A DNA stretch of 64,000 nucleotides from a virus: positions 1 to 64,000 of the IMG/VR virus record IMGVR_UViG_3300030101_003058; one strand, given 5' to 3'. The notes under the pieces are model-generated. The model was not told where the DNA came from and ran no database searches. It was given only the letters and a program-made list of their open reading frames with translations. Numbering within the stretch: position 1 is the stretch's first letter; each line of letters starts with the position of its first letter. Positions 2,884 to 56,979 of this stretch are shown here, in pieces. The translations under genes were made by a program, and so were the position numbers.

Positions 2884-3297
2884 TCAAATTTCAGTAAACG
2901 TATATTCAATCCTTGGATTGTGCTTGTCTACTTCGGTTTCTTCAAATGTCTCAACCTTAATGAAGCTATCGTTGTCATCTTCAAGAACTCCGAGGTTCAC
3001 CAGCGCATCATAAAGAAACTTTGTGTTAGCACCAATAAAATTGTGTTTGTCACTCCTACGATTGCTTTGCTTGTACAACTTAGCAGTAACAGTCACAGGC
3101 TTATCAAAGGTAATCTCTCGTTGGCCCGAGTCAATCAGAAGCTGCTCTACGATTTCCATGAACATTACCTTAGCCTTATTCATCTCTTGATAATGAGCAT
3201 TGCGAGTATAGTTCAAGTTGATTCGGAATACTTTAGGTGCTTTGGTTTTTCTAGGGATTTCTATGGTTAGTGGTGTGGAGATTTTTAGTTGTTTCAT
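2884..3297 (-). CDS. RusA-like Holliday junction resolvase
   Basis: A 137-residue protein. Residues about 80-110 read RRSDKHNFIGANTKFLYDAL then a short loop and EDDNDSFI. This resembles the RusA pattern in which an Asp-containing segment precedes the D-x-L helix and a DD-x3-(I/V) catalytic turn. RusA-type enzymes cleave four-way junctions made by recombination and replication, clearing DNA before packaging. It starts 4 bases inside the upstream exonuclease gene (ATGA-type overlap) and is last in the - strand replication operon, just before the shared terminator. Confidence 0.65.
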   Translation of the reverse strand: MKQLKISTPLTIEIPRKTKAPKVFRINLNYTRNAHYQEMNKAKVMFMEIVEQLLIDSGQREITFDKPVTVTAKLYKQSNRRSDKHNFIGANTKFLYDALVNLGVLEDDNDSFIKVETFEETEVDKHNPRIEYTFTEI

Positions 3298-4325
3298 TTA
3301 GGTTCCTTATAAGTATCAATGAACCTACCAATGAACTCTGCTTTATCGTTCTTGTCTCTCAGCATCCACAGCAACCTCAAGTTCTCCCTCATGACATCCT
3401 TCCAAGTTACCTCTGCGGCTTTCTCTGAGACTGCACAAGTGTATTTAAAGGAATCTCCATAGGTTTCCCTGTACTTCTCACAAACAACGTGTATAACGCT
3501 CTCTAGAGATTCTATAGGTGCTCCAGAGAATTCCTCTAGAATCTCGTATGCTGTTACGGCACCAACACGCTTACATCCTTCGATGTTGTCCACCTGCTTA
3601 TCGCCAGCAAGCAATTGCCACGCTAGAAATAAGTGACCATACCCGACGATCTTCTTACCGGAACGCTCAAGGACACCAACGATGTTCTTTGGTGAGTACA
3701 CAGGTTCTTCCATTTGATCCACCAGAAGTACCCATGTGCCTGAGCATTGGCAACTGTCCTTGTCACGGCTAATACATACGGCAGACTGACCTTTGCGTTC
3801 CGCCATTAGAACGACATAATCATCAACCTCAACCGATGCAACAGCTTTGGTAATTTCTGGATATGTCAAAGCATATTTGCGGACAGCTTCTAGGTGATGA
3901 GGCTTTCGCATATCTGAACGGTTTTTCTTGTAACCGTGGATTGTCGCAATCTTCGAGCGGAATGTCTTACCACCAGACTTGGGAGACACATAACCTTTCC
4001 ATTGAGAAACACCAGCAGTCTTGAGCCAACGCTTTAGTTCGCTGTCGAATACTTTATAGCAATCTTCAGCATCTTTGATCTCGTGTTCGACTTCTCTTGT
4101 GACTTTCTCTAGGTCATCATCCGACAAACCGAAGAGTGCATCTCCGAAATCACGAGAATCTTCCAACCAAGTCTTATGCGCTTTAGCACTATCAAAGCGT
4201 CCTACCTCTGTATCCCCAAGCATCACCTTATACCACACTTGTTCACCAGCAGAAGCAGCAGCAAACAATAGCGCATCTAAGTCAAGGTAGCCTATTGTGG
4301 GTTTCTTTGGATTTTCTTCTGTCAT
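3294..4325 (-). CDS. 5'-3' exonuclease (T7 gp6 / FEN-like)
   Basis: A 343-residue protein. The N-terminus IGYLDLDALLFAAA holds the first metal-binding Asp of the FEN/PIN nuclease fold. Residues about 140-155 (IHGYKKNRSDMRKPHH) match the substrate-binding helix of T7-type exonucleases, and later acidic segments (VEVDDYVV, ISRDKDSCQ, LAGDKQVDNIEG) supply the remaining ligands and the helix-hairpin region. The enzyme removes RNA primers and resects ends. The ATG at 4325 is preferred because AGAGGAAC precedes it; an upstream TTG at 4346 lacks that context. A terminator separates it from the preceding gene. Confidence 0.8.
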   Translation of the reverse strand: MTEENPKKPTIGYLDLDALLFAAASAGEQVWYKVMLGDTEVGRFDSAKAHKTWLEDSRDFGDALFGLSDDDLEKVTREVEHEIKDAEDCYKVFDSELKRWLKTAGVSQWKGYVSPKSGGKTFRSKIATIHGYKKNRSDMRKPHHLEAVRKYALTYPEITKAVASVEVDDYVVLMAERKGQSAVCISRDKDSCQCSGTWVLLVDQMEEPVYSPKNIVGVLERSGKKIVGYGHLFLAWQLLAGDKQVDNIEGCKRVGAVTAYEILEEFSGAPIESLESVIHVVCEKYRETYGDSFKYTCAVSEKAAEVTWKDVMRENLRLLWMLRDKNDKAEFIGRFIDTYKEPK

Positions 4326-53594: not shown

Positions 53595-56500
53595 TTGAGT
53601 AACGAGAGACACGTACTGAAGCCGCAACCGGGACCACAAACAGATTTCCTTAAAGCCGATGAAACTTATGTTTTCTACGGCGGTGGTGCTAAGTAACACT
53701 GGTTCCACCTTAAAAACACCTGTCTAATCGGGGAAACCTACGGTTGATTTATCAACTAGGGCAATCCTGAGCGAATATCGTAATCAATATAAACTCTAAG
53801 ATTTATCTAAGGAGAAACAGAAATGCCAGACATTAAGCCGATATACGGTTACCCAAACTATTCAGTATCTTCGGATGGTGTTGTTTGGAGCAACATTACG
53901 GGGAAGCCTGTAACTGAGTATATTACCGAATCTAGCCCCACTGTCAAAAGGGGTTCCGGTTACCATAGGGTACAGCTTTACAAGAACGGTAAAGGTAAAA
54001 AGTTCTTTGTTCATCGTCTTGTAGCGTTAGCCTTTATATCAAACGATGACCCAGAGGCCAACTGCGTTAACCACAAAAACGGTAATAAAGCAGATAATTC
54101 TGTGGAAAATCTTGAGTGGGTTACACACCGCCAGAATGTAGATCACGCAGTTGAAACAGGTCTGCAACTCAAAGGCGAGGCAGTAGGCACTTCCATCTAC
54201 GAGGAACAAATGGTTCACAAGGCTTGTCAGATGATTGCTCGGGGTGATTTATCACTTCAAGACATCTCTGATGAGACGGGACTTGGTTACCACACAGTGT
54301 CTGATCTGAAGAATCGGCGCTCATGGAACCATATCACCGAACAATATGATTACGATAAGGCCAAGAGACTACCGAGGTCGCGCAGAACTGCGTAAGATAG
54401 TAGGGTAGGCTGCAAGTGCAGCCGAAACGGCAGGAACGTGTTTACACGTTAAGATATAGTCCGATACTCGGGGAAACCCGAGAGTGACCTCACGAGTCAC
54501 ATAACAGCCACGGGTGGTGGCAAGAGTTGGGCCATACTTGCAGATAATCTCAAGTACATACATGACCCAAATTATTTCTCAGTGTTCTTCAGGGAAACCA
54601 CGACCCAGATAGAATCTGGACTCTGGCCCGAGGCCCTGAAGATGTATGAACCGTTCTTGAAATATCAGAGCGGCCCAAAGAAAGGTAAACTTCTTCCCGG
54701 TGTCAAAATCCGAGATAAAGACAAAACAATAATCTGGCCCTCGGGTGCCAAGACACGTTTCAGTTACCTTCAGAATGACCGTGATGCTAACCAGTGGTAC
54801 GGTACGGAGCTTTCTCGGGTGTATATGGACGAGTTCCAGCATTTCTCCGAAGTGCAGTTTACCGTACTTCGTTCGCGTCTGCGTTCTAAAGCTAAGTTCC
54901 CATCTGCAATGCGCTGTACAATGAACCCAGACAGCGGACACTTTGTTCTTGAGTTTATCCGAAGATATCTTGACGAAGATGGTTATCCTATCAGGGATTA
55001 CTCAGGTAAACGCGCATGGTTCATTATGCAAGGCGGGGATATCTATACGGATTGGGATTTTGATGCTCTGCAAGAAAAGTTCCCAGATCAGACACCACAG
55101 AGCTATACGTATGTCCCGTCGGTGCTCTCTGATAACCAAGAGTTGTTAAAACTTGAGCCGGGATATGCAGATATCCTTAAGTCTTTGCCTGATGTAAAAC
55201 GCAGGCAGCTTCTGGAAGGTTGTTGGTTCGTGAGCGACAACAATGCGATGTACTTTGATCGCACTTGGTTACACAGGATAAACTCTGTCCCTCCAAATTG
55301 TAAAGCAGTCCGCGCATGGGATAAAGCATCTGAGGAACCGAACCCTTCCCTCCGACATCCTGACTACACTGCATCTGTTAAGATGTACAAGGATAAGCAC
55401 GGGAATTACTATTTGTGTGAGGGCACAAGGTTCCGCAAGCAGTCTGGTGAACGGGATATGATGATTCTGAATCAAGCAGAGCATGATGGTAGGGATTGCT
55501 ACATTGTGTTTCCGATAGATCCGGGATCTTCTGGAAAATCTGAGTTCCGACACTCAACTAAAACATTTCTGGAAGAAGGCTTTGTAGTAAAGCGTGACCC
55601 TATGGCCCCGACAAAACCGAAGGTACTGAAGTTTGAGCCATTTGCAACAGCGGCTCAGAACGGTCAAGTATATTTGGTTGAGAAGGAATGGGATTCTGAT
55701 AATCTCAAGGCTTATTTGGATGAGCTTGAGTCATTTACAGGGGAACGTTCGAATGCTTCAAGAAAAGACGATTAACAACTTTGTTACCACAGCAAACCCA
55801 GTCGTCTATAAACTCCTTTAATTGCTGGAAACTCCAGTCAGACTTTGAGTAGGATATTGCACGGTAACGTAGCAACGAACCCTGAAAACCTCAAAGGTAT
55901 GGACAATCAGCAGACAATAGTGTAGACTCTGTAAGTAGAGATATAAATTTATTTACGGAGGAATTATTTTGGAAATTAAAAAAGTAAGAGGTTTTGAAAA
56001 CTATTATGTGAGTAAAAACGGCGATGTGTTTTCTACATGGCACGGGACCATGAAGAAAATGACCTTACAACTTCATAAGAGCGGTTACTACAGCATTCGA
56101 CTGTCTAGAGGGTTGCGGGATTACCAAGGTTTTATGGTGCACAGGCTTGTAGCAGAAGCCTTTATCGAAAACCCGGAAGATTTACCTACCGTAAACCACA
56201 AAAATGGTATTAAAACTGACAACCGTGTTGAGAACCTTGAGTGGATGACATATAAAGAAAACAACCGCCACGCATGGGATATTGGCTTGTGCGATGGTCG
56301 CCGGGGTGTCAACAACCATTTCTCTAAAATATCAGAGGGTGATGTTCGAACTATTTGTGAGCTTTTGCAAGAAGGTAAGCAGAGTAGACAAGAGATTGCC
56401 GATTGTGTTGGTGTCAAATACAACATAGTCAGCTCTATTGTGGAACGTAGGGATTGGGCACACATAAGTCAGGACTACGACATCCCAAAGCCGCGTAAGA

Positions 56501-56979
56501 TTGCTAAGAAAACTTCTGACGATGTTGCAATAGAAGTCTGTAAACTTCTCAATCAAGGTGTTCGTAATAAAGACATTTGCAAGAAGCTGCAAGTTAATGC
56601 AGGTTTTGTTACGTCTATAAAAATCGGTAGACGTTATAAACATATTTCCAAAATATATTTACACTAAGTTTCAACGACCATCGAAAGCACACGAAAGTGT
56701 AGTTAGTAGAGTAGGCTTAAGCAAGCCGAAACTAGGAGAGGAGTCTTGAAAGACTCCTAAGATATGGTCTGATCTGCATAGAGATATGCAGCAGCACTTA
56801 GAGTGCGGGGAGAGCGTAGCGAACTCTCCTGAACATCAATGTGGGTAGATGCAACAGCATCAGCATTCAACAGCCTAAGCCGAGAAAAAGTAATCCCCCA
56901 ATTCTCCTTAGGCGAATTTTCCAGTAACAGTCCCACAGCTTTCAAAACACACAAGGATTCCGTAGATTACTACGAATAA
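53595..56979 (+). CDS. Terminase large subunit, split by two group I introns
   Basis: Three exons: 53595-53690 (32 codons, TTG start with GGGAGG upstream), 54513-55772 (420) and 56842-56979 (45), giving 497 residues. Exon 1 ends FYGGGA and exon 2 opens GGGKSWAIL, so splicing rebuilds Walker A. Walker B is SRVYMDEFQHF. The nuclease domain shows IVFPIDPGSSGKS. Exon 2 ends SRKDD and exon 3 begins WVDATASAFN, rebuilding the third nuclease Asp motif. The ATPase drives DNA into the prohead and the nuclease cuts it. Frame is kept at both junctions. An unspliced RNA gives no functional protein. Confidence 0.87.
53691..54512 (+). ncRNA. Group I intron 1 in the large terminase gene
   Basis: 822 bases. 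The 5' exon ends GGTGGTGCT (53682-53690), which pairs with GGTTCCACC (53701-53709), placing the splice-site U opposite G. Core strings GGGGAAACCTACGG (about 53738) and GGCAATCCTGAGC (about 53780) look like P4 and P6-side conserved elements; AAGATATAGTCCG (about 54450) resembles the R/S region. The intron ends in G at 54512. It interrupts the P-loop between codons A and G. It carries an HNH gene. Confidence 0.85.
53823..54395 (+). CDS. HNH homing endonuclease in intron 1
   Basis: 190 residues, AAGGAGAAACAGAA upstream. N-terminal NUMOD4-like segment (IYGYPNYSVSSDGVVWS), HNH core FFVHRLVALAFI and CVNHKNGNKADNSVENLEWV (about 60-102), and a C-terminal helix-turn-helix (SLQDISDETGLGYHTVSDLK) for DNA recognition. 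It would cut an intron-less terminase gene so that the intron is copied in. Confidence 0.88.
   Translation: MPDIKPIYGYPNYSVSSDGVVWSNITGKPVTEYITESSPTVKRGSGYHRVQLYKNGKGKKFFVHRLVALAFISNDDPEANCVNHKNGNKADNSVENLEWVTHRQNVDHAVETGLQLKGEAVGTSIYEEQMVHKACQMIARGDLSLQDISDETGLGYHTVSDLKNRRSWNHITEQYDYDKAKRLPRSRRTA
55773..56841 (+). ncRNA. Group I intron 2 in the large terminase gene
   Basis: 1069 bases. The 5' exon ends AGACGAT (55766-55772), which pairs perfectly with GTCGTCT (55801-55807), again with a U-G at the splice site. GGACAATCAGCAGACAAT (about 55900) matches the Q-region style and AAGATATGGTCTGATC (about 56758) the R/S region. The last base is G at 56841, and TGG opens exon 3. It lies in codons for the terminase nuclease active site and carries an HNH gene. 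Confidence 0.87.
55969..56667 (+). CDS. HNH homing endonuclease in intron 2
   Basis: 232 residues from a TTG with GGAGGAATTAT upstream. NUMOD4-like N-terminus (VRGFENYYVSKNGDVFST), HNH core MVHRLVAEAFI and TVNHKNGIKTDNRVENLEWM, then two helix-turn-helix repeats (SRQEIADCVGVKYNIVSSIV; NKDICKKLQVNAGFVTSIKI). It differs enough from the intron 1 enzyme to suggest independent arrival. Target: the exon 2/exon 3 junction, inferred. Confidence 0.87.
   Translation: MEIKKVRGFENYYVSKNGDVFSTWHGTMKKMTLQLHKSGYYSIRLSRGLRDYQGFMVHRLVAEAFIENPEDLPTVNHKNGIKTDNRVENLEWMTYKENNRHAWDIGLCDGRRGVNNHFSKISEGDVRTICELLQEGKQSRQEIADCVGVKYNIVSSIVERRDWAHISQDYDIPKPRKIAKKTSDDVAIEVCKLLNQGVRNKDICKKLQVNAGFVTSIKIGRRYKHISKIYLH

Follow-up and report, generated by a model that had tools for sequence, protein, structure and literature searches.

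A putative mobile group I intron directly behind a catalytic aspartate codon of a viral large terminase gene

The window, namely, the whole stretch of 64,000 nucleotides that was analyzed, carries a large terminase gene (terL) divided into three exons by two group I introns. The features of the locus, together with the helices assigned to intron 2, are as follows.

53595..53690, + strand: terL exon 1, with a TTG start; matches the L005/L006 proteins
53691..54512, + strand: group I intron 1; junction taken from alignment to uninterrupted proteins
53823-54395, + strand: HNH ORF of intron 1
54513..55772, + strand: terL exon 2; Terminase_6N / Terminase_6C, phrog_979 positions 176-587
55766..55772, + strand: P1 exon strand AGACGAU, pairing to the guide
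55773..56841, + strand: group I intron 2; 1069 nt, phase 0, in-frame TAA at its start
55796-55800 and 55801-55807, + strand: P10 strand ACCCA and internal guide GUCGUCU
55813..55817, + strand: P3 5' strand, with its partner at 56734-56738
55823..55912, + strand: P4, P5, P5a, and P5b with a GNRA loop; P4 is 55823-55827/55908-55912
55918..55924, + strand: P6 5' strand UAGUGUA, with its partner UACACUA at 56660-56666, across the ORF
55927..55960, + strand: P6a hairpin over the HNH Shine-Dalgarno sequence (GGAGG, 55957-55961)
55969..56667, + strand: HNH homing endonuclease ORF of intron 2; TTG start, 232 aa
56676..56769, + strand: P7 (56676-56680/56765-56769), P7.2 (56714-56727), P3 3' strand, and P8 (56740-56757)
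56774-56791, + strand: P9, with 6/7 pairs compensated
56808-56829, + strand: 3' peripheral hairpin, from sequence inspection
56842..56979, + strand: terL exon 3 (WVDATASA...), 45 sense codons and stop; phrog_979 positions 588-627

Exon 1 ended with FYGGGA, the first part of Walker A, exon 2 encoded most of the ATPase and the nuclease domain up to the catalytic Asp452 (spliced numbering), and exon 3 encoded the last nuclease helix and the C-terminal tail. On joining 53595-53690, 54513-55772, and 56842-56979, an open 497-residue terminase was obtained, which aligned over its full length with two relatives (67% and 80% identical). Intron 2 started with TAACAAC and ended with CATCAATG, its last base being G (...CAAUG at 56841). 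Exon 2 ended with AGA AAA GAC GAT (55761-55772), and exon 3 started with TGG GTA GAT GCA from 56842. The RKDD end of exon 2, the WVDATASA start of exon 3, and the restored Asp motif described in the original prediction were thus read directly at the junction, and exon 3 had the predicted 45 sense codons before the stop at 56979. Compared with the terminase of L019, exon 3 showed 24 silent and 11 replacement codons, and codon comparison indicates that purifying selection on this exon is continuing.

The exon/guide helix of intron 2 was as had been predicted. All seven of its base pairs (AGACGAU/GUCGUCU) were formed, the one at the splice site being U-G. ACCCA, located directly 5' of the guide, paired 5/5 with UGGGU, the first bases of exon 3. 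A P1 of at least 7 pairs with an adjacent P10 of at least 5 pairs was found in 5e-5 of shuffled intron starts. Moreover, the intron of the second contig, L005, had the identical guide (GUCGUCU) and a compatible P10 strand (ACCUA). The core was then evaluated on 12 introns with the ORFs removed, consisting of two from L005, two from L101, three from this genome, and single introns from L006, L019, KLEP7, L098, and L100. All 15 pairs of P3, P4, and P7 were standard in 12/12 introns, with compensatory changes in P3 (4/5 pairs) and P7. Over the whole alignment, 88% of the cells were paired, and both sides had changed in 39/51 pairs. The covariation score was 0.572 compared with 0.215 for shuffled sets and exceeded all 500 shuffles; slid controls reached ≤0.151, a control somewhat biased in favor of the structure since this was drawn on the window sequence. 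Of the extra helices between P7 and P3 that characterize subgroup IA, P7.2 was present with 5/5 pairs covarying, and P7.1 differed among the introns. The P5 region had a two-part P5a/P5b extension with GNRA loops, which did not fit a simple subgroup IA assignment.

At the gathering threshold, Rfam gave zero matches in the whole window. Intron 2 matched the Intron_gpI model (RF00028) with E=1.1e-4 and 28.9 bits, and intron 1 matched the group I model with 26.7 bits (E=5.2e-4). Intron 2 would therefore be missed by the Rfam model alone because its score is under the gathering score of 50, which is a library cut-off and not a biological defining feature of group I introns. The match is probably weakened by the HNH ORF lying in P6. 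As the core, P1/P10, and the uninterrupted junction of L019 agreed, the predicted group I intron at 55773-56841 was placed with boundaries exact to the base. We infer that intron 2 is precisely excised and its exons ligated, as supported indirectly by the uninterrupted L019 junction.

The original prediction placed intron 2 in the active-site codons of the nuclease. The intron follows the codon of Asp452, which corresponds to Asp310 of the uninterrupted L006 exon. Solved structures searched with TerL alignment profiles yielded zero terminases at a convincing sequence score; therefore, the fold was predicted. The best Foldseek matches of the predicted L006 exon (mean pLDDT 86) were solved large terminases or terminase nuclease domains (D6E, G20c, and P74-26), the last nuclease helix began at that Asp, and the nuclease domain matched Terminase_6C. 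The catalytic triad of T4 gp17 is D401/E458/D542 (PMC3012670). In domain-trimmed runs, Asp452 aligned to D542 in three alignment modes, while the mapping of the first and second acidic residues of the triad was unstable. In hhalign, the TerL alignment matched T4 gp17 and Sf6 gp2 too weakly for nuclease residues to be mapped. A candidate assignment of the DD motif to T4 584-585, outside the nuclease domain, appeared when the long T4 C-terminus was included in MAFFT; it was rejected, as the trimmed runs gave D542. Considering the Asp452/D542 alignment, the helix start, and the terminase fold matches, the active-site claim was correct, and the last Asp before the intron aligns with a triad member. 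Since intron 1 lies in Walker A (GGGA|GGGKS), the two introns split two different catalytic centers, and terL, holding 2 of the 4 introns found in the 87-kb record, is indeed its most intron-rich gene.

Intron-less alleles, for which the original prediction had suggested a comparison with related phages, were found. L019, whose terminase is 64% identical, was uninterrupted here and read GACGAT|TGGGT, the exact predicted junction, i.e., GACGAT TGGGTGGACGCA. L006 and L007 (81%) were also uninterrupted, with TTC instead of TGG at the site. Within the terL clade of at least 60% identity, the site was thus occupied in the window and in L005, at the same base, and empty in L006, L007, and L019. One distant match was obtained when genome contigs were searched with the TerL alignment. 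Other terL intron sites were 34|35 (L005, L006, and L019), 59|60 and 142|143 (L006), about 119-127 (L019 and J2-1), and about 222-239 (rV5), and introns at or near the Walker B Asp|Glu were present in L063, L065, L066, L089, rV5, and L041. In total, about eight intron positions were seen among the related terL genes examined, and several lie in catalytic motifs. The Walker B Asp|Glu is a recurrent insertion point (L063, L065, L066, L089, and rV5, L126 1528-4373) that is not used in the window. The terL of L006 had three introns (2253-2583, 2659-2906, and 3156-4000), two without an ORF and a third whose ORF is different and looks like endonuclease VII. The terL of Pseudoalteromonas phage J2-1 is annotated without its N-terminal exon, and the gap (L015 856-2078) contained an insert that resembles an intron and has an ORF of LAGLIDADG appearance.

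For the exons flanking the site, the window was compared with L005 at the third positions of codons that are conserved. Over its first 22 codons, exon 3 had 17/20 of these bases in common, compared with 133/284 in exons 1-2, and the highest identity of the whole gene fell in the 20-codon windows over the junction (starts at codons 450-454). On the 5' side of the junction, 10/16 third bases were common, and the rise was unclear. For the same exon 3 tract, intron-less L006 shared 15/20 third bases with the window and L019 shared 6/20. The 3'-exon tract, a small sample, resembles co-conversion on one side, followed by exchange or loss in the L006 lineage; since intron-less L006 shares it in part, the raised similarity may also reflect general recombination or intron loss in that lineage. 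The HNH proteins at the intron 2 site of the window and L005 were 37% identical, no nearer to each other than to HNH proteins of other sites, and the L005 ribozyme was 78% identical to the fourth intron of this genome compared with 72% to the window intron. From these two patterns, ribozyme and nuclease appear to have separate histories, as in Bastillevirinae (PMC11878797). With HNH proteins only 37% identical at this site, it is not proven that the window and L005 simply share one history of homing.

The intron 2 ORF matched Pfam HNH_3 (2.7e-9, domain positions 2-46 of 46) and phrog_59 (3.3e-49), with a NUMOD4-like N-terminal part. As predicted, this HNH protein was unlike that of intron 1 (38% identity). 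The HNH ORF of intron 1 (53823-54395) encodes 190 aa compared with 232-243 and is without the C-terminal repeat of the other HNH proteins of the genome. A search of viral contigs for the HNH protein gave two partial relatives only. The ORF sits in the P6 loop, where the P6 strands flank it on both sides and its stop codon falls within or at the edge of the P6 3' strand. This pairing across the ORF was kept with different letters in L005 and in the third and fourth introns of this genome. Between P6 and the HNH start, a hairpin of 13 bp covers the Shine-Dalgarno sequence GGAGG. Its folding z-score was -4.65 in the window intron and -3.24, -3.69, and -4.09 in three related introns, compensatory changes occurred in the stem among the four introns, and GGAG was unpaired at 0-0.06. 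In the T4 td, nrdB, and nrdD introns, the Shine-Dalgarno sequence of the endonuclease is likewise hidden by a hairpin (PMC2988022); unlike intron 2, these encode either GIY-YIG enzymes or other HNH enzymes, and in T4 the Shine-Dalgarno sequence is freed by a late promoter. A conserved late-promoter motif was not visible by eye in the loop of the hairpin. Upstream of the HNH gene, a T4-like operator similar to the homing site was rejected, as its 13/20 bases were reached by 62% of shuffles.

Taken as a whole, intron 2 is very probably a mobile group I intron of terL that is self-splicing and spreads by HNH homing; both splicing and nuclease activity are predicted from the sequence. After transcription, the intron RNA would excise itself and join Asp452 to Trp453, restoring DDWVDA, with a predicted protein sequence over the junction of DDWVDATASAFNSLSR. 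RNA left unspliced would be translated only as far as the TAA that opens the intron (RKDD*), and the resulting terminase would lack the last helix. The HNH enzyme would cut or nick uninterrupted terL alleles near the catalytic-Asp codons, and repair would copy the intron plus some 3' flank. On the terL read-through message, the hairpin would limit translation of the HNH gene.

The original prediction also regarded the terL introns as a possible timing control for packaging. In this case, splicing would be delayed until late infection, and full terminase, including its nuclease, would be made only when packaging is due. The in-frame TAA as the first intron codon, from which unspliced RNA would yield a truncated terminase, fits such a switch, and the terL of phiAGATE is spliced in the second half of infection; a published hypothesis for Bastillevirinae already proposes a molecular on-switch for packaging timing (PMC11878797). 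However, three of the four closest relatives (L006, L007, and L019) lack intron 2, and intron positions vary between relatives. A mobile parasite thus fits better than a conserved regulator, and the timing claim, being speculative, was considered quite unlikely. A weapon in co-infection was given a low but somewhat greater probability. Here, the HNH enzyme would break terL in rival phages that lack the intron, at a codon that is not free to change, and the carrier phage would gain an advantage; the site is directly at the invariant catalytic Asp, intron-bearing alleles would be immune, and a precedent exists in the intron nuclease gp210 of PhiPA3, which was shown to act against PhiKZ (PMC11620839). 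Nevertheless, intron-less relatives persist, and the sequence cannot separate a weapon from plain homing. By extension, and just as doubtfully, the terL introns could be weapons whose HNH enzymes are aimed at codons that rivals are not free to alter, namely those of Walker A and Walker B and of the third nuclease Asp, with the conserved hairpin setting the HNH output; if so, terL intron content would decide the outcome of co-infection.

Two further readings were weighed. If the intron were dead, terL would be made as two polypeptides, with exon 3 expressed as a separate 46-aa peptide (MWVDATASA...), for which an in-frame ATG at the intron end (56839-56841) and the open exon 3 speak. This is very improbable because the core helices and P1/P10 are intact and covarying, a Shine-Dalgarno sequence was not seen just upstream of the ATG at 56839-56841, and introns of the family at other sites likewise end in ATG. 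The contig is metagenomic, which would allow for an assembly artefact, and the fold might have arisen by chance; the independent contig L005, which is interrupted at the same base by an intron with another HNH gene, and a covariation above every shuffle leave either of these practically negligible. Accordingly, the mobile, self-splicing intron with HNH homing was retained as the preferred reading.

It was already known that terL can harbor group I introns, in some cases two or three of them, and the intron in the window is a clear new example. In Bastillevirinae (SIOphi and phiAGATE) and Bacillus phage Moonbeam, terL has one to three group I introns, homing endonuclease genes are common in them, and splicing in vivo was shown for some (PMC11878797; PMC4299906). 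Unlike the window, these phages have another terminase family (phrog_675 in PMC11878797) and other endonucleases. In Escherichia phage rV5, terL is divided into three segments, two of which are separated by an HNH ORF (PMC3606486); it is of the same TerL family by alignment, but it is split near 139-143 (Walker B) and 222-239 in window-protein numbering and not at Asp452. The earliest report of a terminase gene with a group I intron concerned Lactobacillus phage LL-H (Mikkonen and Alatossava 1995, cited in PMC4299906 and PMC3606486). The closest intron RNAs among named phages were those of Pseudoalteromonas H101, Vibrio 1.084.O, and KLEP7, with 73-85% DNA identity in the 5' core. They lie in tail-gene regions judging by their neighbors, several are without an ORF at the HNH position, and the records viewed had no intron annotation. 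It is established that homing nucleases aim at functionally critical codons (PMC3984707). Among published terL introns, which were mapped in part, none reported at this catalytic Asp was found.

The locus therefore offers a well-resolved, very probably mobile intron right behind the codon of a catalytic residue of the packaging nuclease. Since empty and occupied alleles occur in close relatives, claims on homing, co-conversion, timing, and competition are testable. Moreover, annotation pipelines overlook such introns, as illustrated by the Rfam scores below threshold and by the J2-1 record without the N-terminal terL exon.

Two more introns of the same family, each with an HNH ORF, were observed past the window. 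The third (G000:C1 about 64400-65430; L014 about 880-1923) is just beyond the window in a tail-sheath-like gene, and the fourth (G000:C1 67955-69028; L014 4456-5528) is in a tape-measure-like gene, with a candidate P1 found by eye of AAAUGGCU with GGUCAUUU. In L099, L101, and L104, several related introns were closely spaced, mostly without an ORF.
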